From the NCBI RefSeq assembly GCF_030372105.1, contig NZ_JAUDBQ010000012.1:1-64000 (forward strand): 64,000 nt of DNA, given 5' to 3'. The stretch is from Cellulomonas cellasea (GTDB lineage Bacteria > Actinomycetota > Actinomycetes > Actinomycetales > Cellulomonadaceae). Position 1 is the first letter of the stretch; every line of letters begins with the position of its first letter. The translations under genes were made by a program, and so were the position numbers. Shown piece by piece: positions 24,845 through 43,576 of this stretch. The notes under the pieces are model-generated. The model saw nothing but the letters and a program-made list of their open reading frames with translations. It was not told the origin of the DNA and ran no database searches.

Positions 24845-26523
24845 GGGATGAACTTAGCCGCCTCGGCCACCAGATCGAGAACCGAGGACGGAAGCACGCC
24901 GAGCGCGATGGTGATCAGGGCGCATGCCCCGACCGCCACGGCGGTGAGCCCCTGGGCGGACACGACGGTGGTGGTGGAGGTGACGGGCTTGCCGTCGCCG
25001 TCCTCCTCGGAGCCCGCCGGAGCCGTGAAGAACATCAGCACGATGATCCGCACGTAGAAGAACACGGCTGCGGCGGAGGCGAGCACGCCGATGAGGGCGA
25101 GCGGCCAGGCGCCCGCGGCGACAGCCGACGAGAACACCGTGAACTTCCCGATGAAGCCGGCCGTCAGCGGGATGCCCGCGAACGACAGCAGGAACAGCGT
25201 GAAGGTCAGCGCCGTCCACGGGTGGGTGCGGCCGAGGCCCGCCCACTGGGACAGGTGCGTGGCCTCGCCGATGACGACACCGCCGTCGGCGCTGGCGTCG
25301 GCGCCGGCCTCGGAGCCCTCGACCGTCGAGCCCTCGCCCGCGGCGACCGCGACCGCCACTGGGGCGACGCTCCGCTCACGGACCAGCGAGACGATGCCGA
25401 AGGCGCCCACCGTGGCCGCGCCGTAGGCGATCAGGTAGAACAGGACGCCCGCGATGCCCTCGGAGTTGAGCGCGATCACACCGGTCAGCACGAACCCGGC
25501 GTGCGCGATCGAGGAGTAGGCCAACACGCGCTTCATGTCCGTCTGGACGATCGCGACGACGGTGCCCACGACCATCGTGAGGATGGCGACGGCCCACATG
25601 CCCGCCTCCAGGTCCCACTGCAGGCCGGGCAGCACCACGTAGAAGACGCGCAGCAGGGCGCCGAAGGCGGCGATCTTGGTGCCCGCGGCCATGAACCCGG
25701 TGATGGGCGTCGGGGCGCCCTGGTAGACGTCGGGCGTCCACTGCTGGAACGGGACGGCGCCGACCTTGAACAGCAGGCCGACCAGCACCAGCACGGCGCC
25801 CACGATGAGCAGGCCGTCGAGCCCGGCGACGGTCTGCGTGGCGGCGGCGATGTCCGAGTAGCGCAGCGAGCCGGAGAACCCGTAGAGCAGCGCGATGCCG
25901 AACAGCAGCAGCGCGGAGGCGAAGGACCCCAGCAGGAAGTACTTCATCGACGCCTCCTGGCTCAGCAGGCGGCGGCGGCGCGCCAGCCCGGTGAGCAGGT
26001 ACAGCGGCAGCGAGAGCACCTCGAGGGCCACGAACAGCGTGAGCAGGTCGCCGGTGGCGGGGAAGATCAGCATGCCGCCGGTGGCGAAGAGCATCAGCGG
26101 GTAGACCTCGGTCTGCTGCAGGCCCTTGCGCAGGGCCACCTCTTCGTAGTCGGAGCCGGGGATCGCGGAGGCCTGGGGCGCGAACGCGTCCTCCCCCGAG
26201 CGGGTCCGGTCGGCGACGACGAGGAAGGACAGCAGCGCGAAGATCGCGATGGTGCCCTGCATGACCACCGTGGGGCCGTCGACGATGACCGCGCCGCCCA
26301 GCACCACAGTGCCGCCGGTGGCGCGGACGTCCGCCCAGAGCACCGCGGCGGCGATGAGCGCCCCCGCGGTCGCCAGAAGCGACAGCGTGAGCTGCGCCTG
26401 GCGGCGGTGCTGCCGTGGCGCGAAGGCCTCGACGAGCACGCCGATGACGGCAGCGCCGAGCACGAGGAGGATCGGGGTCAGCTGCGACCAGGCGATCTCC
26501 GGTGCGATGAAGGCCGCGTTCAC
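24841..26523 (-). CDS. nuoN: NADH-quinone oxidoreductase subunit N
   Basis: A 560-aa antiporter-like membrane subunit of complex I, one of three proton-pumping modules. About 14 helices are visible. The family core is seen in KYFLLGSFASALLLFGIALLYGFSG, FQQWTPDVYQGAPTPITGFMA and KRVLAYSSIAHAGFVLTG. A hydrophilic loop of about 45 residues near residues 370-415 (VAAGEGSTVEGSEAGADASA) is longer than usual. The start overlaps the nuoM stop by 4 nt, and the stop overlaps the prenyl synthase start. Confidence 0.96.
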   Translation of the reverse strand: MNAAFIAPEIAWSQLTPILLVLGAAVIGVLVEAFAPRQHRRQAQLTLSLLATAGALIAAAVLWADVRATGGTVVLGGAVIVDGPTVVMQGTIAIFALLSFLVVADRTRSGEDAFAPQASAIPGSDYEEVALRKGLQQTEVYPLMLFATGGMLIFPATGDLLTLFVALEVLSLPLYLLTGLARRRRLLSQEASMKYFLLGSFASALLLFGIALLYGFSGSLRYSDIAAATQTVAGLDGLLIVGAVLVLVGLLFKVGAVPFQQWTPDVYQGAPTPITGFMAAGTKIAAFGALLRVFYVVLPGLQWDLEAGMWAVAILTMVVGTVVAIVQTDMKRVLAYSSIAHAGFVLTGVIALNSEGIAGVLFYLIAYGAATVGAFGIVSLVRERSVAPVAVAVAAGEGSTVEGSEAGADASADGGVVIGEATHLSQWAGLGRTHPWTALTFTLFLLSFAGIPLTAGFIGKFTVFSSAVAAGAWPLALIGVLASAAAVFFYVRIIVLMFFTAPAGSEEDGDGKPVTSTTTVVSAQGLTAVAVGACALITIALGVLPSSVLDLVAEAAKFIP

Positions 26524-28079
26524 TTGTCAGTCCCCTCAGTCGCCGCGTCGTTGACCAGCACAGTCGACGGCACGTCCTCAATCCCTACCTGGTCGAGCGT
26601 GATCTGGGCCGGCTCGTTGACGAACTCGAGCGCGGGCGCGGGGTAGAAGCCGATCACGAGCATGATCGCGATCAGCGGCCCCACGGCCCACTTCTCACGC
26701 CCGGACAGGTCCGGCATCGTCTCGAGGCCGTCCTTGACGGGGCCGGTGAAGATCCGCTGGTAGGTCAGCAGGATGTACAGCGCGGCGAGCACCACGGCGA
26801 ACGCTGACACCACGGCCGCCGGGCGGTCCCGGGCGAAGGTGCCGATCAGCACCATGAACTCGCTGATGAACGTCGACAGGCCGGGCAGTGACAGCGCCGA
26901 CAGGCCCGCCACCAGGAACGTCCCGGCGAGCACCGGCACGACCTTCTGCAGGCCGCCGAAGTCGGAGACCTTCCGCGAGCCACGCCGCGAGATCAGGTAA
27001 CCGGCGAGCAGGAACAGCGCGCCGGTGGAGAGCCCGTGGTTGACCATGTAGAACGACGAGCCCGCGACGCTCATCGACGTGAAGGCGAAGATGCCCAGCA
27101 CGATGAGGCCGAAGTGCGAGACCGACGTGTAGGCGATGAGCCGCATCAGGTCCTGCTGCGCGATGGCCAGCAGCGCGCCGTACAGGATCGAGATGACTGC
27201 CAGCACGATGACCACCGGGGCCGCCCACTGCGCCGCGTTCGGGAACAGCGGCAGGCACAGCGTGAGCATCCCGAAGGTGCCGACCTTGTCGAGCACGCCG
27301 ACCAGCAGCACCGAGGTGCCCGCGGGGGCCTGCTCGGCGGCGTCGGGCAGCCAGGTGTGCACCGGGAACATCGGCGCCTTGATGGCGAATGCCAGGAAGA
27401 ACGCGACGAACAGCCAGCGCTCGGTGTCCGTCGACAGGTCGAGGCCCACGAGGTTCTCGGTGAGGAAGCCCTGCGGGCCGCCGGGGCCCTCGAGGAAGAG
27501 CACGATGACGCCCACGAGCATCACCAGGCCGCCCGCGAGCGAGAACAGCAGGAACTTCACGGCCGCGTAGCGCCGCCGCACCCCGCCGAACTGCCCGATC
27601 AGGAAGTAGACCGGGATGAGCATGGCCTCGAACAGCACGTAGAACAGGAAGACGTCACGCGCCGCGAACACCGCGACCATGAACACCTGCGTGAGCAGGA
27701 TCAGGGCCATGTAGTGCCGGAGCTGGTTGGTGACGACGTCCTTGGTGCTGCCCTGCTCGTTCCAGGCCGCGAGCAGCACCAACGGCACGAGGACGACCGA
27801 GAGCAGGACGAGGAGCAGCCCCACCCCGTCGACGCCCACCGCGTAGCTGACCCCCAGGGCGGGGATCCACGAGTGGGTCTCGACGAGCTGGTGCACGCCG
27901 GCCTGGGCCGTGTCGAAGGACACGACCGCGCCGACGGCGAGGAGGACCTCAGCGAGGGAGAAGCCGAGCGCGACCGGCCGCACAAGGCGAAGGCGCGTGG
28001 CAGGGAGGGCCCACACCGCTGCGGCTCCGAGGAGCGGCAGGACGATGAGGGCTGTGAGCCAGGGGAATCCGGAGGACAT
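26520..28079 (-). CDS. nuoM: NADH-quinone oxidoreductase subunit M
   Basis: A 519-aa antiporter-like proton-pumping subunit of complex I. Characteristic segments are YAVGVDGVGLLLVLLSVVLVP, FYVLFEAMLIPVYFLIGQFGG with the conserved Glu, KFLLFSLAGG, MFPVHTWLPDAAEQAPAGTS and LMRLIAYTSVSHFGLIVLGIF. It begins 15 bp downstream of nuoL and overlaps nuoN. Confidence 0.97.
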   Translation of the reverse strand: MSSGFPWLTALIVLPLLGAAAVWALPATRLRLVRPVALGFSLAEVLLAVGAVVSFDTAQAGVHQLVETHSWIPALGVSYAVGVDGVGLLLVLLSVVLVPLVLLAAWNEQGSTKDVVTNQLRHYMALILLTQVFMVAVFAARDVFLFYVLFEAMLIPVYFLIGQFGGVRRRYAAVKFLLFSLAGGLVMLVGVIVLFLEGPGGPQGFLTENLVGLDLSTDTERWLFVAFFLAFAIKAPMFPVHTWLPDAAEQAPAGTSVLLVGVLDKVGTFGMLTLCLPLFPNAAQWAAPVVIVLAVISILYGALLAIAQQDLMRLIAYTSVSHFGLIVLGIFAFTSMSVAGSSFYMVNHGLSTGALFLLAGYLISRRGSRKVSDFGGLQKVVPVLAGTFLVAGLSALSLPGLSTFISEFMVLIGTFARDRPAAVVSAFAVVLAALYILLTYQRIFTGPVKDGLETMPDLSGREKWAVGPLIAIMLVIGFYPAPALEFVNEPAQITLDQVGIEDVPSTVLVNDAATEGTDK

Positions 28080-28094
28080 CGACGCTGCTCTCTC

Positions 28095-30068
28095 TCAGAT
28101 CCGGGGGGCCATGACGGCGACGACGAGGACGACGAGCCCGATGAGCATCATGGCGGCGTACTGCCGCACGAAGCCCGTCTGCAGCTTGCGGATGACGTCG
28201 CCGCTGCGGACCACCAACCGGGCCAGGCCCGAGAACCCGCCGTCCACGACCTGGCGGTCGAGGTAGACGAGCGAACGGGTCAGGTGCTGGCCGGGCTCGA
28301 CCAGCAGCGCGTCGTTGACCGCGTCCTGGTACAGGTCCGCGCGTGCCGCGCGGGTGAGCGCCGAGCCAGGCGGTGGGGTGATGGGCACAGGGGATGCGGC
28401 GTACTGGCGCCATGCGAGCACCAGGCCGACCACGACGAACAGCATCGTGAGGGTGATGATCAGCCACACCGGCAGCACCGGCGCGTCATGCGTGACATGC
28501 CCGGTGACGGGCTCCAGCCATGTCTGGAAGCCGCCGACGACCAGCAGGCCACCGAGGGCGACCGAGCCGATCGCGAGCACGATCATCGGCACCGTCATCA
28601 GGCGCGGCGACTCGTGCGGGTGCTGCTCGCCGCCGTCGGCCTTCGGGGCCCAGCGGCGCTTGCCCTCGAAGGTCATGAAGAACATCCGCGACATGTAGAA
28701 CGCGGTGATGCCCGCGCCGATCAGCGTCACGGCGCCGAACACCCAGGCGCGCCACTCGGCGCCGTCCACGGGCACGAACGCCGCCTCGATGATCCGGTCC
28801 TTGCTGAAGTACCCGGAGAACGGCGGGATGCCGAGGATCGCGAGCCAGCCGAGGCCGAACGTGACCCAGGTGATCCGCATGTAGCGGGCCAGGCCGCCGA
28901 ACCGGCGCATGTCGACCTGGTCGTCCATGCCGTGCATCACGGATCCGGCGCCCAGGAACATGCCGGCCTTGAAGAAGCCGTGCGTGACCAGGTGGAAGAT
29001 CGCCAGCGCGTAGCCGATCGGGCCGAGGCCCGCCGCGAGGATCATGTAGCCGATCTGCGACATGGTCGACGCCGCGAGGGCCTTCTTCATGTCGTCCTTG
29101 GCGCAGCCGACGATCGCCCCGAAGAGCAGCGTGATCGCGCCGATGATGACCACGACCAGGCGGGCGTCTGGGGCGCCGTCGTAGATCACGCCGGAGCGGA
29201 CCACGAGGTAGACGCCCGCGGTGACCATCGTCGCCGCGTGGATCAGGGCGGAGACGGGCGTGGGGCCCGCCATCGCGTCGCCGAGCCAGGACTGCAGGGG
29301 GAACTGCGCCGACTTGCCGCACGCCGCGACGAGGAGCACGAGGCCCATCGCCGTGAGCGTCGCGGTGGACGCGCCGGGGACCCCGGCCTCCACGTCGGTG
29401 AAGCTGACGCCGCCGAACGTGGCGAACATGAGCATCAGGGCGACCAGCAGGCCGACGTCGCCGATGCGGTTGGCGATGAACGCCTTCTTCGCCGCGACCG
29501 CGTACGCCAGGTTGTGGTTCCAGAAGCCGATCAGCAGGTACGAGGCCAGGCCCACGCCCTCCCAGCCGACGAACAGCAGGAGGTAGCTGTCGGCCAGCAC
29601 CAGCAGCAGCATCGCCGCGATGAAGAGGTTGAGGTACGCGAAGAACCGGCGCTTGGCAGGGTCCTCGGCCATGTACGCGATCGAGTACACGTGGATCAGC
29701 GAGCCGACGAACGTCACCAGCATCACGAAGGTGAGCGACAGGGGGTCGAGTCGCAGGCCCGCGCTGAGGTCGAACGAGCCGACGGATATCCAGTCGAACA
29801 TGTGCAGGTCGAGGACCCGCTCGGCTGCCGGGCGTCCCAGCAGGCCGATGATGTTCAGCAGGCCGACCACGAAGGCGCCGGTGGACATCGCCACGGCGAA
29901 CCACGGTCCCCAGCGGTCGGAACGGCGCCCGGCGAGCAGCAGCACCGCGGCGCCGAACAGCGGGAGCACGACCATCAGCGGCGCGAGCGCGAACACTCCG
30001 CCTTCGACGGTCTGCGCCACGGCGGCGGGCGTGTCTGCGGCCAGGGCGAGGGGGGTCAGGGTGTGCAC
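28095..30068 (-). CDS. nuoL: NADH-quinone oxidoreductase subunit L
   Basis: A 657-aa proton-pumping subunit, the largest of the antiporter-like trio, with the long C-terminal lateral helix expected in the last 100 residues. Landmarks are [78 protein letters not shown]-type sequence, and [14 protein letters not shown]. It lies 10 bp after nuoK. The hydrophilic loop about residues 480-500 ([17 protein letters not shown]) is ordinary for actinobacteria. Confidence 0.97.
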
Positions 30069-30078
30069 GTGCCGGCCC

Positions 30079-30378
30079 TCAGCTCTTCAGCAGGTTGACG
30101 TCGTCGACCGAGGCCGAACGGCGGGTACGGAAGATGGCCACGATGATCGCGAGCCCGATGACGACCTCGGCGGCCGCGACGACCATGACGAAGAACGCCA
30201 TCACCTGGCCGTTGAGGTTGCCGTGGATGCGGGCGAACGTCACGAGCGCGAGGTTGGTCGCGTTGAGCATCAGCTCGATGCCCATGAACGCGATGATCGC
30301 GTTGCGGCGCACCAGCAGGGTGGCGGCGCCGATGCTGAACAGCAGCGCCGACAGCACCAGGTAGTGGGTGAGGGTCAT
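30079..30378 (-). CDS. nuoK: NADH-quinone oxidoreductase subunit K
   Basis: A 99-aa three-helix subunit of the complex I membrane arm. [15 protein letters not shown] opens it, and the functionally important Glu residues sit in [16 protein letters not shown] and [14 protein letters not shown]. The start overlaps the nuoJ stop by 4 nt. Confidence 0.97.
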
Positions 30379-31268
30379 GGCGTCTCCTCCGTGCCCCGCG
30401 GCGAGGTGATCGGTGTCGTCGGGCCGGACGTCTCGCCGACGTCGCCTGCCTCCTGGACGGGCGGGCCGATGTCGGCGCCACCGGTGAACGGCTGGATCTC
30501 CGCACGGAAGCCCGCGGTGCCGGCCTGCTGGCCACGGATGCGCAGCACGCGCGAGACCGACTCCTCGATCGGGCGGCCCTGCGGGTCGAGCGCGGGCACG
30601 TCCATCGCGTTGTGGCGGGCGTAGACGCCGGGCGCGGGCTGCGGGGTGAGCGAGCCACCGCCGAGCACGCGCGACTCCTGGCGCTCACGCTGCCCGACGC
30701 GCGGGATGAGGCGCTGGCGGTGCGTCAGCACGAGGGCGCCCAGCGCCGCGGTGACCAGCAGCGCGCCGACGACCTCGAACGAGAACACGTACTGCCCGAA
30801 GATGATCCGCGCGACGCCCACGGGGTTCGAGTCGGCGTTCGCCGCCTCCAGCCCGACCGGCGCGCCGTAGCTCGCCCGGCCGACGACGCCCACGAGCACG
30901 CTCGCCAGGCCGATGCCGGCGAGGATCCCGATCCAGCGCTGCCCGCGCAGGGTCTCCACCAGGGAGTCCGAGGCGTCGACGCCGACGAGCATCAGCACGA
31001 ACAGGAACAGCATCATGATCGCGCCGGTGTAGACGACCACCTGCACGACGCCGAGGAACGGGGCGTCCTGCGCGACGTAGATGAACGCGAGGGAGATCAT
31101 CACGACCACCACGGACATCGCGGCGTGCACGGCCTTGCGGGCGAACAGCAGGCTCAGCGCGGCGATGACCATGACGGGCGCGAGGACCCAGAAGAGCACG
31201 GCCTCACCCGTGCTGGTGACGCCGGTGTCGCTGAGGACCGTCGGCAGCACCGAGGCGAGGGGGCTCAT
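30375..31268 (-). CDS. nuoJ: NADH-quinone oxidoreductase subunit J
   Basis: A 297-aa subunit with five helices in the first 180 residues ([66 protein letters not shown]). The remaining 115 residues are a hydrophilic extension rich in Pro, Gly and Arg, ending in [17 protein letters not shown]. coli NuoJ lacks it and I cannot assign a role. The ATG at 31268 overlaps the nuoI stop by 4 nt and is preferred over the longer open frame, which lacks hydrophobic character. Confidence 0.96.
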
Positions 31269-31981
31269 CGGTTCTCCGGGTTGTGGGCGTGGGCCAGGCG
31301 CTCCGCGGCGCGCTGGGCGCCGGGCAACGTCGGGTCGTCGGGGCGGTGCTCGGCGACCCACTCGACCTGCGCGGGCGCGGGGCCGGTGATCTCGCCGCGG
31401 TAGTACTCGGTGTCGGACGTGCCGGGCGCCATGGGGTGCGGCGCGGCCAGCATGCCGTCGAGCATCGGGGCCAGCAGGTCGTTCTTCTCGTAGATCAGGC
31501 CCTCACGGGTGGGGCCCGCGAGCTCGAACTCGTTGGTCATCGTGAGCGCGCGCGTCGGGCACGCCTCGATGCACAGGCCGCAGAAGATGCAGCGCAGGTA
31601 GTTGATCTGGTAGACGCGGCCGTACCGCTCGCCGGGCGACATCTGCTCGCCGGGCGAGTTGTCCGCGCCCTCGACATAGATCGCGTCCGCGGGGCACGCC
31701 CACGCGCACAGCTCGCAGCCGATGCACTTCTCCAGGCCGTCCGGGTACCGGTTGAGCTGGTGGCGGCCGTGGTAGCGCGGCTGCGGCGGGACCTTCTCGT
31801 ACGGGTACTGCTCGGTGATGACCGGGCGGAACATGTTCGAGAACGTGACGCCGAAGCCGCCGACCGGGGCCAGCACCTCCCGGATGCCCGAGCGCTTCGG
31901 GATCAGGGACTCGTACGCGCCGGGGGTCGCGACCTCGCCGCCGGGCTTGCTCGGCGTGACGTCCTTGGGCTGGTCAGCCAC
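31265..31981 (-). CDS. nuoI: NADH-quinone oxidoreductase subunit I, 2x[4Fe-4S]
   Basis: A 238-aa peripheral-arm subunit carrying clusters N6a and N6b. The two ferredoxin motifs are [15 protein letters not shown] and [15 protein letters not shown]. The N-terminal 40 residues and the tail of about 60 residues past the ferredoxin fold are longer than in E. coli. It overlaps nuoH by 8 nt and nuoJ by 4 nt. Confidence 0.97.
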
Positions 31982-33341
31982 GGTGCGCCTCCTGGGTGAC
32001 CTGGGGGGTCTCGGTCGGGTCGCCCGCGCTGCGGGAGCGGCGCGGGGACGGGGGCAGTGCCTGGCCCGGCAGCGGCGGGACCGGGTAGCCGCCCGCGAAC
32101 GCGTCGATGACCACCGGGTCCTCGACGGTGCCGCGGGGCGGGCCCTCGGGCTCGGGCCGGGGCTTCTCGGGGATGAGGAACGAGATGCCGACGGCGACGA
32201 CCACGATGCCCGCCAGCACGAACAGGATCGTCTGCAGGTCCACGTCGGTGAAGTTCCGCACGCCCTGCACGATCGACACGCACACCACCCACGCGAGCGC
32301 GATGGGGATGAGCACCTTCCAGCCGATCTTCATGAACTGGTCGTAGCGGAAGCGCAGCGCCGAGCCGCGGATCCACACGAACACGAACATGAACAGCCAG
32401 ACCTTCGCGACGAACCACAGCACCGGCCACCAGCCGGTGTTGAACATGCCGTCGTTGATCCACGAGATGGGCCACGGGGCGCGCCAGCCGCCGAAGAACA
32501 GCGTCGTCGCCACGGCCGAGACGTTGATCATGTTGATGTACTCCGCGAGGAAGAACCACGCGAACTTCATCGACGAGTACTCGGTCATGTAGCCGGAGAC
32601 GAGCTCGCCCTCGGCCTCGGGGAGGTCGAAGGGCAGGCGGTTCGTCTCGCCCACCATCGCGATGATGTAGATGACGAAGGCCGGCAGCAGCGGCAGGAAC
32701 CACCAGACCTGGGTCTGGGAGCCGACGATCTGCGAGGTCGACATCGACCCCGCGATGATGAACACGCTGACCAGGGACAGGCCCATCGCCAGCTCGTAGG
32801 AGATCACCTGCGCGGTGGACCGCACCGCGCCGAGCAGCGGGTACGTCGAGCCCGAGGACCAGCCGCCGAGCACGATGCCGTACACGCCCACCGAGGTGCA
32901 CGCGAGGATGTACAGCACCGCGACGGGGAAGTCGGTGAGCTGCAGCGGCGTCACGATGCCGAACATGCTCACGCTGGGCCCGAAGGGGATCACCGCGAAC
33001 GTCAGCAGCGAGCAGAACACCGCGATCATCGGCGCGACGAGGTAGACGAGCTTGTCCGCCGCCTTGACGGTGATGTCCTCCTTGAACAGGAGCTTCATCG
33101 CGTCGGCCACCGGCTGCAGCAGGCCGACCGGCCCGTGCACGTTGGGGCCGGGGCGCACCTGCATGCGGGCGACGACCTTGCGCTCGAACCAGATCGCGAT
33201 GAGGACGCTGACCAGCAGGAAGACGACGATCGCCACGGCCTTGAGCAGCCAGATCCAGGCGTTGTCGTTGCTGAAGTCCGCGACGGTCGGATCGCCGACC
33301 GCTGTGGGGAGCGATGCGCCCACTGCACTGAGCAGACTCAT
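31974..33341 (-). CDS. nuoH: NADH-quinone oxidoreductase subunit H
   Basis: A 455-aa membrane subunit that lines the quinone chamber. Family segments are [22 protein letters not shown]-type sequence near residue 50, [39 protein letters not shown] with the conserved acidic loop, and [18 protein letters not shown]. About 55 extra C-terminal residues ([13 protein letters not shown] to QEAHRG) are hydrophilic. ATG at 33341 overlaps the nuoG stop by 4 nt; a much longer open frame upstream is antisense to nuoG protein and is not coding. Confidence 0.96.
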
Positions 33342-35959
33342 GCCCGCACCTCCGCGTCCGTGACGTCGATCTGGGTCCCGGGAGCCAGGCGCACGAGCGC
33401 CCCTGGTCCGGCGTGCAGGGTCTCGCGCACGGCCGAGCCGGGCGAGTTGGTGGGCAGCCAGACGACGTGGTCGGGCATGTCGGTGACGACCACCGGCAGC
33501 TCGATCACGCCGGCGTCGGTGCTCACCGCGAGCAGGCCGCCGTCGACGACGCCCACGCCCTCGGCGGTGGCGGCGGACACCCGCGCCACGGGCCGCTTGG
33601 CGGTGCCGGCGAGGAACGCCTCGCCGTCCTGCAGGCGGCCGGAGTCGAGCAGCAGGTGCCAGGTCGCCAGGACCGCGTGGCCGGGCGCGACAGCCGGCGG
33701 CTCGGCGGCGGCAGCGGCGGGCGCGGCGACCCGGGCGCCATCCCAGGCGCCCAGCTGGTCGAGCTCGGCGTGCACCTGGGCCAGCGTGCCCACGCCCAGC
33801 GTGACGCCCAGGGCGTCGGCGAGGCGGTCGAGCACGCGGTGGTCGCCCACAGCCGTGGAGGTCAGCGCCTGCGGGAAGGGCCGCGGGCGACCCTCCCAGG
33901 TGACGAAGGTGCCACCCTTCTCCACCGGCGGCGCGACGGGCAGCACCACGTCGGCCAGCGCGGTGACCTCCGAGGAGCGCACCTCCAGCGACACGACGAA
34001 CGGCGCGGCGGCCAGCGCCTCGCGGGCGGCGGCCGGGTCCGGCAGGTCGCGCAGGTCCACGCCGCCGACGACGAGCGCCCCGAGCCGGCCCGTGCGGGCG
34101 GCCTCGAGGATCTCCGTGGCGGTGCGGCCAGGCGCGGTCGGCAGCGAGTCGACCTCCCAGGCGGCGGCGACGTCGACCCGGGCTGCGGCGTCGGCGACCG
34201 GGCGGCCGCCCGGCAGCAGGCTGGGCAGCGCGCCGGCCTCGACACCGCCACGCTCCCCCGCACGGCGGGGGATCCAGGCGAGGCGGGCGCCGGTGCGCTC
34301 CGCGAGGCGCAGCACGGCGGTGAGCCCGCCGGGGACTGCGGCGAGCCGCTCCCCCACCAGGATCACGGCGCCCGGCTGGGCGAGGTCGGTGGCGAGCGCG
34401 CTCAGCGTCGGCACGTCGGAGCCGGGCTCCACCGCGTCGAGCACCTCGGCCTCGGTGCCCGGGGCGGCGGCGACGAGCGTCCCGTCGAGGCGCTCCAGGC
34501 CGCGGCTGGCGAACGGCGCCACCGAGACGACGCGGGTGGTCCCCGCGAGGACCCCCTTGCGCAGGCGCAGGAACGTGACCCCGGCCTCCTCCTCCGCCTC
34601 GAGCGCGGCGAGGAGCACGACGGGGGCCTTCTCCAGGTCGGCGAACGTGACCTGCATGGCCCGGCCGGCGACGTGGTGGCCCAGGAAGGCCTCCTCCTCG
34701 GCGGACAGCGGGCGGCTGCGCAGGTCGACGTCGTTGGTGCCGAGGGCCGTGCGGGCGAACTTGCCGTACGCGTAGGCGTCCTCGAGGGTCACCCGGCCGC
34801 CGGGCAGCACGCCCACACCGGCGGGGGCGCCGGCCTCGGCGGGCTTCAGCGCGGCGCGCAGGCCCTCCGCGGCGACGTCCAGCGCCTCGACCCAGCTCGC
34901 GACGCGGAGCTCGCCGGTCGCCTCGTCGCGGACCAGCGGGGTGGTGATGCGGTCCGGCGCGGACTGCCAGGTGAACGCGAAGCGGTCCTTGTCGGTGATC
35001 CACTCCTCGTTGACCGCCGGGTCCTCGCCCGCCAGGCGGCGCAGCACGACGCCCCGACGGTGGTCGACGCGGATCGCCGAGCCGCACGAGTCGTGCTCGG
35101 AGACGCCCGGGGTGGACACCAGGTCGAACGGACGGGCCCGGAACCGGTAGGACGCGCTGGTCAGGGCGCCCACCGGGCAGATCTGCACGGTGTTGCCCGA
35201 GAAGTACGACGCGAACGGCTCGCCGGACTCGTCCTCCTCGGCGGGGCCCACGGGCACCTCGCCGCTGGGCGCGCCGGCCGGGGCCTCGAAGCCGAGCACC
35301 TCGGGGGCGAAGCGGCCGATCTGCTGGTTGGCGCCGCGCTTCTGCAGGTCGATGAACGCGTCGCCGGCGATCTCCTTGGAGAACCGCGTGCAGCGCTGGC
35401 ACAGGATGCAGCGCTCCCGGTCGAGCAGGATCTGCGTGGAGATCGCGATCGGCTTGGGGAACGTGCGCTTGACGTCCACGAACCGCGTCGTCGCGCGCCC
35501 GTTGCTCATCGCCTGGTTCTGCAGGGGGCACTCGCCGCCCTTGTCGCAGACCGGGCAGTCGAGCGGGTGGTTGATGAGCAGCAGCTCCATCACGCCGTGC
35601 TGGGCCTTGTCGGCCTCGGGCGAGGTGTGCTGCGTCTTGACCTGCATGCCCGGCGACGCCTCGAGCGTGCAGGAGGCCTGCGGCTTGGGCATCTTCGCGA
35701 GCTTGCCGTCACGGCCCGGCGCCCACACCTCGACGAGGCACTGGCGGCACGCGCCCGCGGGGGCGAGCAGCGGGTGGTCGCAGAACCGCGGGATCTGGAT
35801 GCCGACCTGCTCGGCCGCGCGGATGACGAGCGTGCCCTTGGGCACCGCCACCTCGAGGCCGTCGATGGTGAACGTCACGGCGTCCACGGGCGCCGGCGTC
35901 GCGGCGGGCGTCCCCTGCGAGGCTGCCCCCGAGCCGGGCTTCGGTGTCGTGATGGTCAT
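33338..35959 (-). CDS. nuoG: NADH-quinone oxidoreductase subunit G
   Basis: An 873-aa peripheral-arm subunit with several iron-sulfur clusters. The N-terminal [2Fe-2S] ligands are in [19 protein letters not shown], followed by [15 protein letters not shown], then the ferredoxin-like [17 protein letters not shown] and the ICPVGALTS site. The rest is the molybdopterin-oxidoreductase-like domain, degenerate in this family. ATG at 35959 overlaps the nuoF stop by 4 nt. The first 25 residues ([21 protein letters not shown]) are a flexible extension. Confidence 0.96.
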
Positions 35960-37305
35960 GCGTGGACCCCCGCCAACTGCCCGGCCGGACGGCGCGGGGT
36001 GTAGGTGAACTTCGAGCTGCGCTCGGGCGGGAACAGCTCGTCGGCGGGCGTGTGCGTGCCCGCCTCGAACTCCTCCCGGAAGTACTGGATCGCCGAGGTG
36101 ATGGGGCTGGTGGCCCCGTCCCCGAGCGCGCAGAACGCGCGGCCCAGGATGTTGTCGCACAGGTCGAGCAGCAGGTCGATGTCCGCGCTGGTGCCCTGGC
36201 CCGCCTCGATGCGGTGCAGCACCTGCGACAGCCAGAACGTGCCCTCGCGGCACGGCGTGCACTTGCCGCACGACTCGTGCTTGTAGAAGTCGGTCCAGCG
36301 CGTCACCGCGCGGACCACCGACGTGGTCTCGTCGAAGATCTGCAGCGCGCGCGTGCCCAGCATGGACCCGGCGGCGGCGACGGACTCGTAGTCGAGCGGG
36401 ATGTCGAGGTGCTCGGCCGTGAAGATCGGCGTCGAGGACCCGCCGGGCGTCCAGAACTTCAGCTCGTGGCCCTCACGGATGCCGCCCGCCATCTCCAGCA
36501 GGCGGCGCAGCGTGATGCCCAGCGGCGCCTCGTACTGGCCCGGCCGCTGCACGTGGCCCGACAGCGAGAAGATGCCGAAGCCCGGCGAGCGCTCGGTGCC
36601 CATCTCGCGGAACCACTGGGCGCCGCCCTTGAGGATCGCGGGCACGGAGGCGATGGTCTCGACGTTGTTGACCACCGTGGGCCGCGCGTACAGGCCCGCG
36701 ACGGCGGGGAACGGCGGCTTCAGGCGCGGCTGGCCGCGGCGCCCCTCGAGGGAGTCGAGCAGTGCCGTCTCCTCGCCGCAGATGTAGGCGCCGGCGCCGG
36801 CGTGGACGGTGATGTCCAGGTCGAAGCCCGAGCCCATGATGTTCTTGCCGAGGTAGCCGGCCGCGTAGGCCTCCTCCACCGCGCGCATCAGGCGGCGGTA
36901 GACGTGCACGACCTCGCCGCGCAGGTAGATGAAGGCGTGCGAGCAGCCGATCGCGTAGGACGTGATGATCGCGCCCTCGAGGAGCAGCTGCGGGCTGGCC
37001 ATCATCAGCGGGATGTCCTTGCAGGTGCCCGGCTCGGACTCGTCCGCGTTGATGACCAGGTAGCGCGGTCCGCCGTCGGGCGCGGGCAGGAAGCCCCACT
37101 TCATGCCCGTGGGGAACCCGGCGCCGCCACGGCCGCGCAGGCCGGAGTCCTTCACCGCGCTGATCACGTCGGCCGGGGTCTGCGCGAGCGCCGCCCGGAG
37201 CCCGGCGTAGCCGCCGCCGTCCAGGTAGGTCCGCAGCGCCCAGGACCTCTCGAGTCCCCAGTCCTTGGTCAGGACGGGGGTCAGGGTCGTCACGTCGGTC
37301 ATCAC
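35956..37305 (-). CDS. nuoF: NADH-quinone oxidoreductase subunit F (NADH/FMN)
   Basis: A 449-aa subunit that oxidises NADH. It has the FMN/NADH glycine-rich [18 protein letters not shown] region, the [13 protein letters not shown] segment, [19 protein letters not shown], and the N3 [4Fe-4S] site [13 protein letters not shown] with the fourth Cys downstream. Two starts are possible three bases apart: GTG at 37305, overlapping the nuoE stop by 3 bases, or ATG at 37302, sharing one base with it. Either way translation is coupled to nuoE. Confidence 0.97.
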
Positions 37306-38180
37306 GACTCCTTGGCCTGGTCGGAGCTCTGCTTCTTCTGCTGGTCCTCAGCGGAGGAGTCCTTCGCCGAGGTGGGCTTGCGCTCCGCGCTCGACTGCGG
37401 GCCGCCGACCTCGGGCGATGCCGCAGCGGGCGCCGTGGTGTCGGGCTTCGTGGCCGCGGGCTTCGTGGCGGCGTCGCCGGGGAACGCCGGGGCGGTCCAC
37501 CCCTCCGCCGCGGCGAGCTGCGTGCCGCGCTCGGTCTCCGGGCCGCCGCTCGGGCCCTCGTCGGCGAGGCCGTCGGGGAAGCCCGCGAGCACCCGCGAGA
37601 CCTCCTTGAACGAGCAGATCTTGCCGGGCCCGCGCGTCGAGGTGACGGGCTCCCCCGCGCGCAGCTTGTCCACCGTCTCGACGGCGGACTGCGGGGTCTG
37701 GTTGTCCAGGAACTCCCAGTTGACCATCACCACGGGCGCGTAATCGCACGCCGCGTTGCACTCGATGCGCTCGATCGTGACCTTGCCGTCGGCCGTGGTC
37801 TCGTCGTTGCCGAGGTCGAGGTGCTCGGAGAGCTCCTCCCAGATGGCGTCGCCGCCCATGATGGCGCACAGCGTGTTGGTGCAGACCCCCACGGTGTACT
37901 CGCCGTTGGGCCGGCGCTTGTACTGCGAGTAGAACGTGGCCACCGCGGAGACCTCGGCGGCGGTCAGGTCCAGCGTCTCCGCGCAGAACGCGATGCCGGC
38001 GGGGCTGACGAAGCCGTCCTCGCTCTGCACCAGGTGCAGCAGCGGGAGCAGCGCCGAGCGGGGCTGCGGGTAGCGGGCGACGACCAGGGCCGCGTCGGCG
38101 GCGAGCCGGGCGCGGGTCTCCTCGTCGTACCGGGCGGCCGGGCGCGTGCCGGCGGGCAGTGCGCTGTTCTCGACGGACAT
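37302..38180 (-). CDS. nuoE: NADH-quinone oxidoreductase subunit E
   Basis: A 292-aa thioredoxin-like subunit holding the N1a [2Fe-2S] cluster; the four Cys are in GVCTNTLCAIMGG and ECNAACDYAPVVMVNWEF. The catalytic fold ends near residue 205. The final 85 or so residues are a low-complexity Ala/Pro/Thr/Ser/Lys tail (AATKPAATKPDTTAPAAA to [14 protein letters not shown]), unlike the roughly 170-aa E. coli protein. ATG at 38180 shares one base with the nuoD stop (TGATG). Confidence 0.95.
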   Translation of the reverse strand: MSVENSALPAGTRPAARYDEETRARLAADAALVVARYPQPRSALLPLLHLVQSEDGFVSPAGIAFCAETLDLTAAEVSAVATFYSQYKRRPNGEYTVGVCTNTLCAIMGGDAIWEELSEHLDLGNDETTADGKVTIERIECNAACDYAPVVMVNWEFLDNQTPQSAVETVDKLRAGEPVTSTRGPGKICSFKEVSRVLAGFPDGLADEGPSGGPETERGTQLAAAEGWTAPAFPGDAATKPAATKPDTTAPAAASPEVGGPQSSAERKPTSAKDSSAEDQQKKQSSDQAKES

Positions 38181-39544
38181 CAGCGGTCCACCCCTCCCAG
38201 GACGGGGTCCAGCGAGGCCACCGCGACGACGACGTCGGCCACCTGGCCGCCCTCGCACATCATGGACACGGCCTGCAGGTTGTTGAACGACGGGTCGCGG
38301 AAGTGCGCCCGGTACGGCTTCGTGCCGCCGTCGGAGACGAGGTGCACGCCGAGCTCCCCACGGGGGTGCTCCACCGAGACGAACGCCTGGCCGGCGGGGA
38401 CCCGGAAGCCCTCCGTCACCAGCTTGAAGTGGTGGATCAGGGCCTCCATCGAGGTGCCCATGATCTCCCGGATGTGGTCCAGCGAGTTGCCCATGCCGTC
38501 GGAGCCGATGGCGAGCTGCGCGGGCCAGGCGATCTTCTTGTCCTCGACCATGACCGGGCCGGGGCCCATCGCCTGCAGGCGCTCAAGCGTCTGCTCGATG
38601 ATGCGGATCGACTGGTAGCACTCCTCGAGGCGCAGGACGACCCGCGACCACGCGTCGGCGTCCGTCGACGTCGGGATGTCGAAGTCGTACGTCTCGTAGC
38701 CGCAGTACGGCGCGGCCTTGCGGACGTCGTACGGCAGCCCGGTGGACCGCAGCACGGGGCCGGTGATGCCCAGGGCCATGCTCGCGGGCAGGCCCAGGTA
38801 GCCGACGCCCTTGAGGCGCGCCTGCAGGATCGGGTTGGCCAGCATGAGGTCCTCGAGCTGCCCGAAGTCCTTCTTCATCACCGTGATCGCGTCGCGGACC
38901 GCGTCCAGGGCGCCCGGCGGGATGTCCTGCACGACGCCGCCCGGGCGGATGTACGCGTTGTTCATGCGCAGCCCGGTGATCAGCTCGAAGACCCGGAGCA
39001 CCTGCTCACGGGCGTTGAAGCCGACGATCATGATGGTCGTGGCGCCCAGCTCGTTGCCGCCGGTGGCCAGGCACACGAGGTGCGAGGCGATGCGGTTGAG
39101 CTCCATCATCATCACGCGGATGACTGTGGCCCGCTCCGGGATGTCGTCCGTGATGCCGAGCAGCTTCTCCACGGCCAGGCAGTAGCCGGCCTCCTGGAAG
39201 ATGTTCGCCACGTAGTCCATGCGGGTGCAGAACGTGACGCCCTGCGTCCAGGACCGGTACTCCATGTTCTTCTCGATGCCGGTGTGCAGGTAGCCGATGC
39301 CCGCGCGGGCCTCGGTGACCGTCTCACCGTCGATCTCGAGCATGAGCCGGAGCACGCCGTGCGTCGACGGGTGCTGCGGGCCCATGTTGACGACGATGCG
39401 CTCCTCGCCGAGGCGAGCAGCCTCCTCGGCGATCTCGGACCAGTCGCCGCCGGACGCCTCGAACGACGGCACGCCGGTGGCCTGGTCGTCGATGATGTGG
39501 CCGGTGGCCGTGGGCTTGCCCTGAGGGGGTGTCTGAGGGGACAT
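38180..39544 (-). CDS. nuoD: NADH-quinone oxidoreductase subunit D
   Basis: A 454-aa 49-kDa-type subunit forming half of the quinone site. [29 protein letters not shown], the MDYVANIF segment, and the near-terminal [13 protein letters not shown] and [23 protein letters not shown] are the family hallmarks. The start overlaps the nuoC stop by one base. It has a 30-residue N-terminal leader not seen in E. coli. Confidence 0.97.
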
Positions 39545-40392
39545 CAGCTGTACGACCTCCGCTGGTCCGCGGGCGGCACGGTGGCGCCCTTGTACTCGAC
39601 CGGGATGCCCCCGAGGGGGTAGTCCTTGCGCTGGGGGTGGCCCGGCCAGTCGTCGGGCATCTCGATGCGCGCGAGCGCCGGGTGCCCGTCGAAGACGATG
39701 CCGAAGAAGTCCCAGGTCTCGCGCTCGTGCCAGTCGTTCGTCGGGTAGACCCCGGTGGTGGACGGCACGTGGGGGTCGGCGTCGGGGACGGCGACCTCGA
39801 GGCGCAGGCGACGGCTGTGCGTCACCGACACCAGGTGGTAGACGGCGTGCAGCTCGCGGCCGGTCTGCTCCGGGTAGTGCACGCCGGAGACGCCCAGGCT
39901 GAGCTCGAAGCGCAGGTCCTGGTCGTCGCGCAGCATCTGGGACACCTCGACGAGGTGCTCGCGGGCCACGTGCAGCGTGAGCTCGTCGCGGTCCACGACC
40001 ACCGAGGGGATCGCGTTGGCGAACCCGGTGCCGGAGGCGTCGAGCAGCTCGATGAGGATGTCGACGACCTCGTCGAACCAGCCGCCGTAGGGGCGCGGGC
40101 TCGCGCCCGGCAGCGCCACGGTCGTCACCAGTCCGCCGAAGCCGGACGTGTCGCCGGAGCCGGGGCCGCCGCCGAACATGCCGTGGCGGACCTCGATGAC
40201 CTCGGGCTCGGGCGAGCCCAGCGGGCCGACGTGCTGCGAGCCGCCCTCGAGGGCCGCCTCGCTCGTGCTCTGGGCGGCCAGCGCCTCAGACGTCGTCGTG
40301 TCGCCCGGCTTCGCGGCCGCGGCCGCGCTTGCCTTCTCGGCGGACACCTCGGGGGTCTTGTCCCCCTCGGGCGCCCCGGACTTCTCACTCAT
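39544..40392 (-). CDS. nuoC: NADH-quinone oxidoreductase subunit C
   Basis: A 282-aa 30-kDa-type subunit of the peripheral arm, separate from nuoD here. The conserved core includes [20 protein letters not shown] and [23 protein letters not shown] with [21 protein letters not shown]. The first 90 residues are a hydrophilic Ala/Glu/Ser-rich leader ([20 protein letters not shown]), longer than usual. ATG at 40392 overlaps the nuoB stop by 4 nt. Confidence 0.96.
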
Positions 40393-40940
40393 GCCAACAG
40401 GCCCTTCATGTGCGACGTCGGCGTGGCCTTGAGGGCCGCGGCCTCGGCGGCGCGGGCCGCCTCCTTGCGGTTCACGCCGAGCGGCTCCGCCTGGATCTGC
40501 GTGTGCAGCTCGAGGATCGCGTTGATGAGCATCTCGGGCCGCGGCGGGCAGCCGGGCAGGTAGATGTCGACGGGCACGACGTGGTCCACGCCCTGCACGA
40601 TCGCGTAGTTGTTGAACATCCCGCCCGACGAGGCGCACACGCCCATCGACAGGACCCACTTGGGCTCGGGCATCTGGTCGTAGACCTGCCGCACCACGGG
40701 CGCCATCTTCTGGCTCACCCGGCCGGCGACGATCATCAGGTCGGCCTGGCGCGGCGAGGCGCGGAAGACCTCCATGCCGAACCGGGAGATGTCGTAGCGG
40801 CTGGTGCCGGTCGCCATCATCTCGATCGCGCAACAGGCCAGGCCGAACGTGACCGGCCACAACGAGCCCTTGCGGAAATACCCGACGAGGTTCTCGACCG
40901 TCGTCAGCAGGAACCCTGAAGGCGCCTCTTCGATACCCAT
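40389..40940 (-). CDS. nuoB: NADH-quinone oxidoreductase subunit B
   Basis: A 183-aa PSST-type subunit carrying cluster N2 next to the quinone site. The tandem Cys is in [12 protein letters not shown], and the others are in [10 protein letters not shown] and GCPPRPEML. It lies 12 bp downstream of nuoA and overlaps nuoC. Confidence 0.98.
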
Positions 40941-40952
40941 GTCAGATCACCC

Positions 40953-41315
40953 CTAGTCCCACTCGAAGCCGCCGCGGCGCCACTCGTACACGAAGGGCAC
41001 CGTGATGAGGGCCAGGAAGCCCAGCATCGCGACGAGCCCGAACGTGGCGAGCTCCGTGAAGTTCACGGCCCACGGGTACAGGAAGACCACCTCGATGTCG
41101 AAGATGATGAAGGTCATCGCGACGAGGTAGTACTTGATCGGGAACCGGCCGCCACCGACGGCATGCGGTGTCGGCTCGATGCCGCACTCATATGCGTCCA
41201 GTTTCGCGCGGTTGTAGCGCTTCGGCCCCAGGATCGCGCTGGCGCCCACGCCGCCGAGGGCGAGCACCGCGGCGATCCCCATCATGAAGAGGAGCGGGAC
41301 GTACGGGTTGGTCAT
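40953..41315 (-). CDS. nuoA: NADH-quinone oxidoreductase subunit A
   Basis: A 120-aa three-helix membrane subunit. Family segments are AKLDAYECGIEPTP with the conserved Cys, FPIKYYLVAMTFIIFDIEVVFLYPWA and VPFVYEWRRGGFEWD. ATG at 41315 begins MTNPYVPLL. First nuo gene; 148 bp separate it from the reductase gene upstream on the same strand, and that gap holds an 18-bp palindrome but no good terminator with a T tract. Confidence 0.97.
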   Translation of the reverse strand: MTNPYVPLLFMMGIAAVLALGGVGASAILGPKRYNRAKLDAYECGIEPTPHAVGGGRFPIKYYLVAMTFIIFDIEVVFLYPWAVNFTELATFGLVAMLGFLALITVPFVYEWRRGGFEWD

Positions 41316-41416: not shown

Positions 41417-41434
41417 CCGGGACCTAGGTCCCGG
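41417..41434. promoter_or_regulatory. 18-bp perfect palindrome between the reductase gene and nuoA
   Basis: CCGGGACCTAGGTCCCGG is self-complementary over its whole length. It lies 30 bp after the reductase stop and about 100 bp before nuoA. It could be an operator or, folded, a 7-bp hairpin with a CTAG loop acting as an attenuator or partial terminator. Confidence 0.5.
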
Positions 41435-41463: not shown

Positions 41464-42759
41464 TCATGCCGCCGGCGCCAGCCGGGCGAGCGCGGAGATG
41501 GTCCGGTCGACCATGTCACCGCCCCGCGGCTCGTAGCAGTCGGACAGGAGCTTGAGCACGAAGCGCATGAGCAGCGGGCGGGGCAGCCCGTAGCGGGTGC
41601 ACACGTGCATCACCTGGGGGTGCTCGATGAGCTTCACGAAGATCCGGCCGAGCGTGTAGTACCCGCCCAGGTCATCCTTCATGCGGGTCTGGTACGCGGC
41701 CAGCGCGCGCTCACGCCCGGCGGCGGAGCCGCGCGCGGCGGCCTGGACCACGGAGTCCGCGGCGAACCGGCCAGCCTGCAGGCCGTAGGCGATGCCCTCG
41801 CCGTTGAACGGGCTGATCATGCCCGCGGAGTCGCCGGCGAGCATCAGGCCCCGCCCGTACAGCGGGCCCCGGTTGAAGCCCATGGGCAGCGCGGCGCCGC
41901 GCACCTCGCCGATCTGGTTCTCCGGGGTGAAGTCCCACTCGGCGGGGGCGTTGGCCATCCACTTGCGGAACAGGTCCTTGTAGTCGACCTTCGTCGCCGC
42001 GGCCGTGGAAGACACCGAGCCGAGGCCGACGTTCGCCGTGCCGTCGCCCAGGGAGAAGATCCAGCCGTAGCCGGGCATGAGGTTCGAGCGCCCCGGGGCG
42101 CCGTCCCACAGCTCGAGCTGGCTCTCCATCCACGGGTCGTCGTGGCGCGGCGTGCGGAAGTACGTGCGGACGGCGACCCCCATGGGCCGGTCCATCCGCT
42201 TCTCGAGGCCCAGGCCGGTGGCGAGCCGCGCGGACACGCCGTCCGCCGCGATGACCACGGGGGCCCGGTAGGTGACGTCCTCGCCGGCGCGCTTGCCGTC
42301 GCTGCCCACGGGGCGGGCGGTGACGCCGACCACGCGGCCGGTGCGCTCGTCGAGCAGCGGGCCGGTGACGTTGGTGCGCTCCAGCAGCTTGGCCCCGGCG
42401 GCGCGGGCGTGGGACGCGAGCATGTGGTCCAGGCTCATCCGCGAGCGGGCCAGCCCGTAGGACGGGTAGCTCGACAGCTCGGGCCACGGCAGCTCGAGGC
42501 GATGCCCGCCCCCGACCACGCGCAGCCCGCGGTTGCGGATCCAGCCGTCCTCCTCGCGGAGGGAGACGCCCATCGCGGCGAGCTCCTTGACCGCGCGGGG
42601 CGTCAGGCCGTCGCCGCAGACCTTGTCGCGGGGGAACTCCGCCTTCTCGAGCAGGAGGACTTCCAGACCCGCGGAAGCGCAGTGATAGGCAGCGCTCGAT
42701 CCCGCAGGACCTGCGCCGACGACGATGACGTCGGCGTCATCGCTCCTTGCGTCAACCAC
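41464..42759 (-). CDS. Geranylgeranyl reductase family protein, probable menaquinone (MenJ-like) reductase
   Basis: A 431-aa FAD-dependent reductase of the geranylgeranyl reductase family. The FAD fold is DVIVVGAGPAGSSAAYHCASAG, followed by PRDKVCGDGLTPRAV, the family's active-site Cys segment, and GDSAGMISPFNGEGIAYGLQ near the second FAD contact. In mycobacteria MenJ saturates one isoprene unit of menaquinone; position at the head of the nuo operon and beside menG makes the same job likely, but sequence cannot exclude another polyprenyl substrate. GTG at 42759 lies 6 nt from TAGGGC, a leaderless-type arrangement, with a Rex-like operator just upstream. Confidence 0.85.
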   Translation of the reverse strand: MVDARSDDADVIVVGAGPAGSSAAYHCASAGLEVLLLEKAEFPRDKVCGDGLTPRAVKELAAMGVSLREEDGWIRNRGLRVVGGGHRLELPWPELSSYPSYGLARSRMSLDHMLASHARAAGAKLLERTNVTGPLLDERTGRVVGVTARPVGSDGKRAGEDVTYRAPVVIAADGVSARLATGLGLEKRMDRPMGVAVRTYFRTPRHDDPWMESQLELWDGAPGRSNLMPGYGWIFSLGDGTANVGLGSVSSTAAATKVDYKDLFRKWMANAPAEWDFTPENQIGEVRGAALPMGFNRGPLYGRGLMLAGDSAGMISPFNGEGIAYGLQAGRFAADSVVQAAARGSAAGRERALAAYQTRMKDDLGGYYTLGRIFVKLIEHPQVMHVCTRYGLPRPLLMRFVLKLLSDCYEPRGGDMVDRTISALARLAPAA

Positions 42760-42765
42760 TGTCCC

Positions 42766-42771
42766 GCCCTA
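42766..42771 (-). promoter_or_regulatory. Candidate -10 element of the reductase-nuo operon
   Basis: TAGGGC on the minus strand, 6 nt before the GTG start at 42759. The last base departs from TAnnnT, so it is a weaker match than the other leaderless promoters here. Confidence 0.45.
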
Positions 42772-42773
42772 CT

Positions 42774-42789
42774 TGTGAAGACGTTCACA
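42774..42789. promoter_or_regulatory. Rex-type operator upstream of the reductase-nuo operon
   Basis: TGTGAAGACGTTCACA, 6-bp perfect arms around a 4-bp centre, with one more T on the left as in TTGTGAAnnnnTTCACAA. This matches the consensus reported for the NAD(H)-sensing repressor Rex in actinobacteria. It abuts the candidate -10 at 42766-42771, so a bound repressor would block polymerase. A rex gene lies at the right edge of the window. Confidence 0.8.
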
Positions 42790-42877
42790 TCCCAACCTGG
42801 CCGAGTGTAGCCAGGGCCACAGACCATGTCTGCGAAGGCTTACCTCACTTGCCCGTGACACCGCGTGACGAGCGGTG

Positions 42878-43576
42878 TCACACCACCGGGCGGACCGCCC
42901 GATGCAGCGCGACGATCCCCCCGGAGAGGTTGCGATAGGCCACGTCACGCCACCCGGAGTCCTTCAGCAGGCGCCCCAGCCCGAGTTGGTCGGGCCACTC
43001 CCGGATCGACTCCGCCAGGTACACGTACGCGTCCGGCTCCTTGGAGACGGCCCGCGCCACCGGCGGCAGGGCGCGCATGAGGTACTCGGTGTAGACGGTG
43101 CGGAACGGGGCCCACGTCGGGCGGGAGAACTCGCACACCACCAGGCGGCCGCCCGGGCGCGTGACCCGCAGCATCTCCTCGAGGGCGGCCTGCGTCTCCG
43201 CGACGTTGCGCAGCCCGAAGGACATCGTCACCGCGTCGAAGGACTCGTCGGCGAACGGCAGGTGCACCGCGTCGCCCGCGACGAAGCCCAGGTCGGGGCG
43301 CCGGCGCTTGCCCACGCCCAGCATCCCCAGCGAGATGTCGCACGGGACCACATGCACCCCGGAGTCGGCGAGCGGCTCGCTCGACGTGCCGGTGCCGGCG
43401 GCCAGGTCGAGCACGCGCTCGCCCGGCTGGGCGCCCACGGCCGCGAGCGTGGCCCGGCGCCAGTAGCGGTCCTGACCCAGGGAGATCACGTCGTTCGTCA
43501 GGTCGTAGCGGCGGGCGACGCCGTCGAACATGGCGGCGACCTCACGAGGGTCCTTCTCAAGACTGGCGCGTGGCAT
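42878..43576 (-). CDS. menG: Demethylmenaquinone methyltransferase
   Basis: A 232-aa SAM-dependent methyltransferase of the UbiE/MenG family, doing the last ring step of menaquinone synthesis. [22 protein letters not shown], the SAM loop [39 protein letters not shown]-type sequence and [12 protein letters not shown] are all family signatures. It is divergent from menF with 47 bp between starts, and lies 118 bp upstream of the reductase operon on the same strand. Confidence 0.96.

Follow-up and report, generated by a model that had tools for sequence, protein, structure and literature searches.

In Streptomyces avermitilis Rex binds nuoA1, as seen by EMSA, ChIP and footprinting, and represses this gene, while NADH lowers the binding of the protein to its targets (PMC5355995). 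The available text of that paper gives the footprinted nuoA1 operator as TTGTGACCTGCTTCACAT, with Rex protecting positions -42 to -16 at nuoA1 and -3 to +25 at cydA1; under oxygen limitation nuoA1 rises slightly and then falls, in the wild type and the rex mutant alike (PMC5355995). In Streptomyces tsukubaensis nuoA-N is placed in the Rex regulon and IdeR is mentioned separately, as far as the accessible portion of the paper goes (PMC7602649). The S. avermitilis paper also summarizes the fermentation regulon of Rex in Staphylococcus aureus, which comprises adhE, pflBA and ldh1 (PMC5355995). IdeR, for its part, binds the nuo promoter of Saccharopolyspora erythraea as a single dimer, with TTAGGNNNNCCTAA as the proposed consensus, and the available part of that account mentions no Rex operator (PMC8464063). 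A literature search found no report of a joint IdeR and Rex nuo promoter in the texts as accessible; in PMC11250799, which contains both words, Rex is the name of an author. A search on Rex in Cellulomonas returned as its only match a review on Clostridia in biomass biorefining.

The window, by which we mean the whole stretch of 64,000 nucleotides analysed here, carries a row of complex I genes headed by a geranylgeranyl-reductase-family gene (GGR), a palindrome ahead of GGR and a rex gene. It is part of a 3.81 Mb genome in 33 contigs from a relative of Cellulomonas timonensis, the GGR sequences of the two matching at about 99.7-100%. The palindrome, which directly follows the inferred -10 of the GGR-nuo promoter, is very probably a Rex operator at which repression of the row would be relieved by NADH. 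The likeness to S. avermitilis nuoA1-N1 extends to the repressor family, the form of the operator and the complex I operon. The window site, however, precedes GGR and comes after the inferred -10, and in this it is nearer to the cydA1 than to the nuoA1 layout. As Rex control of nuo has already been demonstrated in S. avermitilis, the GGR-nuo site would represent a further case; what was less expected is that the strict regulon looks reduced and that iron and NADH may control the promoter together.

The GGR-nuo gene row and its promoter

The genes of the row are as follows.

41464 to 42759, minus strand: GGR, geranylgeranyl-reductase-family FAD protein, first gene (Pfam; NCBIfam GG-red-SF over cut-off)
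40953 to 41315, minus strand: nuoA (family searches)
40389 to 40940, minus strand: nuoB (family search)
39544 to 40860, minus strand: nuoC (family search; longest open frame, true start internal)
38180 to 39544, minus strand: nuoD (family search)
37302 to 38258, minus strand: nuoE (family search)
35956 to 37305, minus strand: nuoF (family search)
33338 to 36271, minus strand: nuoG (family search; longest open frame, start uncertain)
31974 to 33338, minus strand: nuoH (family search; start uncertain)
31265 to 31981, minus strand: nuoI (family search)
30375 to 31361, minus strand: nuoJ (family search; start uncertain)
30079 to 30378, minus strand: nuoK, 99 aa (recognised by eye)
28095 to 30068, minus strand: nuoL (family search)
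26520 to 28079, minus strand: nuoM (family search)
24841 to 26523, minus strand: nuoN (family search)
23837 to 24844, minus strand: polyprenyl diphosphate synthase (best model NPPPS_Mycobact)
41417 to 41434, no strand assigned: perfect 18-bp palindrome CCGGGACCTAGGTCCCGG in the GGR-nuoA gap

This is the gene content (GGR, nuoA-N and a prenyl synthase) that had been proposed from the sequence alone, now confirmed by family searches and, for nuoK, by eye. The name menaquinone reductase given to the first gene in the same sequence-only reading holds in part: the protein scores 241.7 bits against the NCBIfam subfamily GG-red-SF, over the cut-off of 158.8, but 245.7 bits against the MenJ equivalog, under the cut-off of 700. 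GGR is thus described here as a probable menaquinone-tail reductase. The polyprenyl diphosphate synthase gene, which overlaps the end of nuoN by 4 nt, reaches 293.8 bits with NPPPS_Mycobact, under the cut-off of 600, and both proteins would presumably serve menaquinone. GGR and nuoA are separated by 148 nt, a gap that holds CCGGGACCTAGGTCCCGG; given this gap and its palindrome, a single transcript spanning GGR, nuoA-N and the prenyl synthase gene is a point that we infer. The palindrome itself could be an attenuator, a terminator or a second operator. As a conserved operator it was rejected, since among the 80 loci compared GGGACN4GTCCC is exact in this gap in C. timonensis only, with one mismatch in two others (L057 and L058).

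Upstream of GGR, and in the same direction, lies menG. An inverted repeat with 9-bp arms (a hairpin) extends across the menG stop codon at 42855-42881 and is a probable terminator parting menG from the GGR-nuo promoter. Thus GGR probably has a promoter of its own, the elements of which are listed here with the other features that bear on its control.

42774 to 42789, no strand assigned: predicted Rex operator TGTGAAGACGTTCACA (motif match; conserved with rex; class-wide comparison)
42804 to 42809, minus strand: inferred -10, TACACT (TACACT or TAGACT in 18 of 21 aligned loci)
42827 to 42832, minus strand: inferred -35, CAGACA (AGACA in 20 of 21 aligned loci)
42834 to 42847, minus strand: candidate one-dimer IdeR/DtxR box TGAGGTAAGCCTTC (7/10 to TTAGGNNNNCCTAA)
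63588 to 64000, minus strand: rex, cut by the window edge, the whole gene being 63588-64298 on the contig (Pfam, NCBIfam and PDB matches)

A plain sigma-70 scan called no promoter in the GGR upstream region. Alignment of 21 loci, C. timonensis among them, identified conserved blocks in the order AGACA, TACACT/TAGACT, operator and start, which in the window gives CAGACA-N17-TACACT. The palindrome had been described as abutting a candidate -10; this did not hold for the best-supported -10, the conserved one, which sits 14 nt upstream of the operator. In three rex-less loci of the C. citrea clade both promoter blocks are kept and the operator is 5-6 nt shorter as aligned. Placed directly after the inferred -10, the operator would occupy a roadblock position. 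When NADH/NAD+ is low, Rex would sit on the operator and block initiation or early elongation; as NADH rises, NADH-bound Rex would leave the DNA and the complex I genes would be expressed. The probable quinone-tail enzymes encoded in the same row would then be made together with complex I, a main oxidiser of NADH.

A palindrome that follows rex

TGTGAAGACGTTCACA is a 16-base palindrome with perfect 6-bp arms and no mismatch to TGTGAANNNNTTCACA, and 14 nt separate it from the GTG start codon of GGR (42759) on the minus strand. Read in the operon direction, on the reverse strand, 42774-42789 is TGTGAACGTCTTCACA, which fits TGTGAACNNNTTCACA. The arms, the distance to the first start codon and the match to the Rex consensus claimed in the sequence-only reading are therefore all present, the last in the same form as the footprinted TTGTGACCTGCTTCACAT. 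Within the 64 kb this is the only match at two mismatches or fewer. Across the 3,807,857 bases of the genome it is the single exact match to TGTGAANNNNTTCACA, and the 18 places at two mismatches or fewer (one exact, one with one mismatch and 16 with two) compare with four for a reversed control pattern. The 17 places other than the GGR site divide into nine inside open frames, as judged by a filter, and eight elsewhere. Five of the eight are near genes for a sigma factor/FlgN, a TetR protein, a nucleotidyl transferase, citrate synthase and beta-galactosidase, one adjoins a frame that matched no family, and the remaining two have no annotated neighbour; no classic Rex target is among the annotated neighbours of these weak sites. 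The repressor gene is where it had been placed, at the right edge of the window some 21 kb from the palindrome. The genome holds one intact copy, the product of which has both Rex domains over cut-off (PF06971, winged helix, and PF02629, NAD-binding Rossmann domain), scores 307.7 bits against NCBIfam NF003992 (cut-off 226) and matches Rex structures in the PDB (best E 2e-42).

The core claim, that a Rex operator heads the GGR-nuo row, is well supported by comparison with relatives. The best 80 of 118 GGR loci from a scan of GTDB genomes were compared, a site being counted at two mismatches or fewer to TGTGAANNNNTTCACA within 250 nt upstream of GGR, and rex at a PF06971 match over cut-off, which was scored for 79 of the 80 genomes (L029 was left out of the rex counts). 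Among these 79 relatives, 61 have both site and rex, 15 have neither, three have the site without rex and none has rex without the site; the site is thus kept in 61/61 rex-bearing relatives and absent from 15/18 that lack rex. Most Cellulomonas loci carry a two-mismatch form such as CGTGAACAACGTCACA. Loss of the palindrome from relatives that keep the operon, which had been set in advance against the Rex proposal, does indeed occur (the C. citrea clade, Actinomycetaceae, Ruania and others), but the lineages concerned are also without rex. The three rex-less keepers are a Cellulosimicrobium MAG (L056), in which rex may be absent through an assembly gap, and two Flavimobilis-like genomes with the two-mismatch form. 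In one Flavimobilis-like genome (G074, locus L266) the usual rex slot is empty and the two-mismatch nuo operator is present; matches to HAD (phosphatase) and YceI lie about 550 nt apart there, with no rex match between them. Under the looser rule GTGAN6TCAC two further loci (L020 and L025) also score, at a different place. On the GGR tree there are four changes in rex and three in the site, and an independent-pairs sign test returned p 0.25-0.5, a test that lacks power because the independent pairs are too few.

The class-wide sample comprised 148 genomes. GGR was matched at E 1e-100 or better in 101 of them, the window's own included; of the remaining 100, 89 were analysed (L268-L356) and 11 were left out. 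In the 400 nt before GGR, 74 of the 89 have an operator at two mismatches or fewer to TTGTGAANNNNTTCACAA. The split, less clean than in the 79 relatives, is 70 of 83 genomes with rex and four of six without detected rex, these four being 76, 94, 73 and 82% complete. Eight of the 13 rex-bearing genomes without the site belong to one genus with genomes of 7-10 Mb, and in none of the eight was nuoA found beside GGR in the stretch analysed. They may be Streptomyces-like, a group in which the known operator precedes nuoA1.

It could be argued that the palindrome has arisen by chance, or that it is an RNA or terminator element without a regulator. Indeed, shuffled windows contained a mean of 0.22 matches at two mismatches or fewer, and since 19 of 100 shuffles had at least one, the likeness to the motif counts for little by itself in 64 kb. 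This explanation is scarcely credible, however, in view of the conservation of the site before the same gene, in every one of the 61 relatives with rex and, class-wide, in 74 of 89 genomes, and of the scarcity of the core GTGAN6TCAC, at 0.029 per 265 nt of GGR loci with the operator sites themselves included in the count. A different regulator deserves closer attention. The CRP/GlxR (cAMP receptor) family recognises the consensus TGTGA-N6-TCACA, which the palindrome fits exactly; the window's genome encodes a CRP-like protein (106 bits with the NCBIfam CRP model, under the cut-off of 266) and holds other TGTGAN6TCACA sites, one of them before citrate synthase. As the main reading a CRP/GlxR-type site is nevertheless very unlikely and was rejected, because CRP persists where rex and the site vanish. 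Of 17 rex-less genomes examined, 15 retain a CRP-family match, and CRP thus does not explain the pattern; the site, at two mismatches or fewer, has gone from 13 of those 15 and is found in two. In one genome (G026), moreover, rex and the site are both present and CRP gave no match; across the class the site follows the Rex consensus TTGTGAANNNNTTCACAA at its inner and outer positions, and a place just downstream of the -10 fits a repressor. In these comparisons 47 of the 50 genomes gave a match to the CRP homologue, that of G042 being distant only, at 28% identity.

A site used by both proteins, with Rex and CRP competing across carbon and redox states, would satisfy both consensus forms, and both regulators are encoded; it is unlikely, given that no comparative CRP signal is evident, the site being mostly lost where CRP remains and rex has gone. 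Among the genomes compared the distribution of the site follows rex, as predicted for a Rex operator. Two other sequences were noted in the course of this work. TGTGAGCACGATCACA, 107 nt before citrate synthase in the window's genome (L165, position 64300 of another contig), is likely to be a CRP/GlxR-type site. GGGACTTAGGTCACC in rex-less genomes was initially taken by us to be DosR-like, an interpretation dropped for the iron-box reading considered below; the pattern GGGACYTARGTCMCC occurs in nine of 46 genomes, rex-bearing and rex-less alike.

Strict Rex operators in rex-bearing genomes

The extent of the regulon was estimated in 46 genomes with the strict operator pattern TTGTGAN5TTCACR and a reversed control alongside. 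The strict pattern is present in 31 of the 33 rex-bearing genomes and in one of 13 without rex (G030, where the match lies elsewhere in the genome), while the control matched in 0/46. In 16 of the 33 the only strict match is the one before GGR; these are 13 Cellulomonas, the window's genome included, two Sanguibacter and one Myceligenerans. Two genomes (G038 and G039) have single strict matches that were unplaced and stand outside the 16, two (G024 and G029) have one strict match each that is not before GGR, and two (G007 and G010) have none. The GGR site itself therefore departs from the strict pattern in at least these last four rex-bearing genomes. Since no strict operator other than the GGR site occurs in these 16, the strict Rex regulon of those genomes looks reduced to complex I, and in the window's genome and many other Cellulomonas Rex may serve complex I nearly alone, though weaker sites may exist besides.

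Recognised Rex targets include adhE, pflB and cydA, and it is such genes that are marked by the strict matches, four to eight per genome with both strands counted, in Cellulosimicrobium, Sediminihabitans, Paraoerskovia and Xylanimicrobium (five genomes). Upstream sites at two mismatches or fewer were found at eight of 30 adhE loci and four of 30 cydA loci examined, with five further cydA cases from coordinates alone. Compared with the S. aureus fermentation regulon, Cellulosimicrobium, Sediminihabitans and Xylanimicrobium have exact palindromes before adhE, and some relatives of Cellulomonas have sites at pflB or cydA. In the window's genome, by contrast, adhE and cydA are present and the best upstream Rex site has six mismatches in each case. 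The exact 18-bp Rex palindromes before adhE are at L213, L214, L220 and L224, none being found before adhE of the window's genome. Autoregulation was dropped from consideration, as 0/31 rex loci have an upstream site at two mismatches or fewer; three have one with three mismatches.

A candidate iron box and possible control by two signals

The candidate IdeR box adjoins the -35 on its upstream side. Counts were made on 65 of the 80 loci; a locus was left out if it had no site or if the sequence upstream was too short. AGG-N4-CCT or AGG-N9-CCT occurs just upstream of the -35 in 53 of the 65 relatives, against about 4% of random stretches, and a score of at least 7/10 to TTAGGNNNNCCTAA is reached 53-62 nt upstream of the operator in 41 of the 65, against a background of 1.4%. 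The rex-less C. citrea clade scores 8/10, and Nocardioidaceae loci reach 5 at most. Class-wide, where a longer stretch was searched, nine of 74 reach 7, and three of 74 reach 8 or 9, at 58-59 nt. Many Cellulomonadaceae and Promicromonosporaceae loci keep this half-site-like sequence at the same position, and part of this signal may be promoter sequence common by descent. Nearly identical TTGGGACTTAGGTCACCC-like sequences are also seen before cydA in a rex-less Bowdeniella (L136) and before three rex-less GGR-nuo rows (L020, L025 and L037), where the regulator is possibly IdeR.

The Cellulomonas promoter, in a fixed place, has a one-dimer-like box similar to that of Saccharopolyspora erythraea, although at 7/10 to TTAGGNNNNCCTAA the box is a candidate. 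IdeR boxes of repressed genes are reported to overlap the -10 or the start, and a 2023 review, in the part available, describes IdeR half sites elsewhere, their occurrence and function, as still to be investigated (PMC10317159). Unlike the boxes of repressed genes, the one here overlaps neither element, and our guess is that it activates or modulates transcription.

Taken further, these observations allow a tentative proposal, possible though distinctly less secure than the Rex operator itself: that complex I in Cellulomonadaceae and Promicromonosporaceae is expressed from a promoter with two sensors, IdeR and Rex, that the Rex of Cellulomonas is nearly dedicated to it, and that the operator decays once rex is lost. 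With enough iron at hand for Fe-S clusters, iron-loaded IdeR at the one-dimer box would permit or boost transcription; Rex free of NADH would block it at the transcript start. Cellulomonas Rex would have lost its targets in fermentation and cytochrome bd to become an almost dedicated regulator of complex I and the quinone tail. Where rex has been lost, the operator would decay, with the iron box and the core promoter left in place.

A Rex operator before GGR would place a probable quinone-tail reductase gene, together with complex I, under an NADH sensor in most of the class genomes sampled. Cellulomonas may also be a straightforward example from nature of how a global redox regulator narrows towards a single target. 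For the half-site question left by the review (PMC10317159, in its available part), the GGR-nuo promoter would offer a test that needs two proteins and a single DNA fragment. Should the iron box prove real, the supply of complex I would be set both by its substrate, NADH, and by its costliest cofactor, iron.
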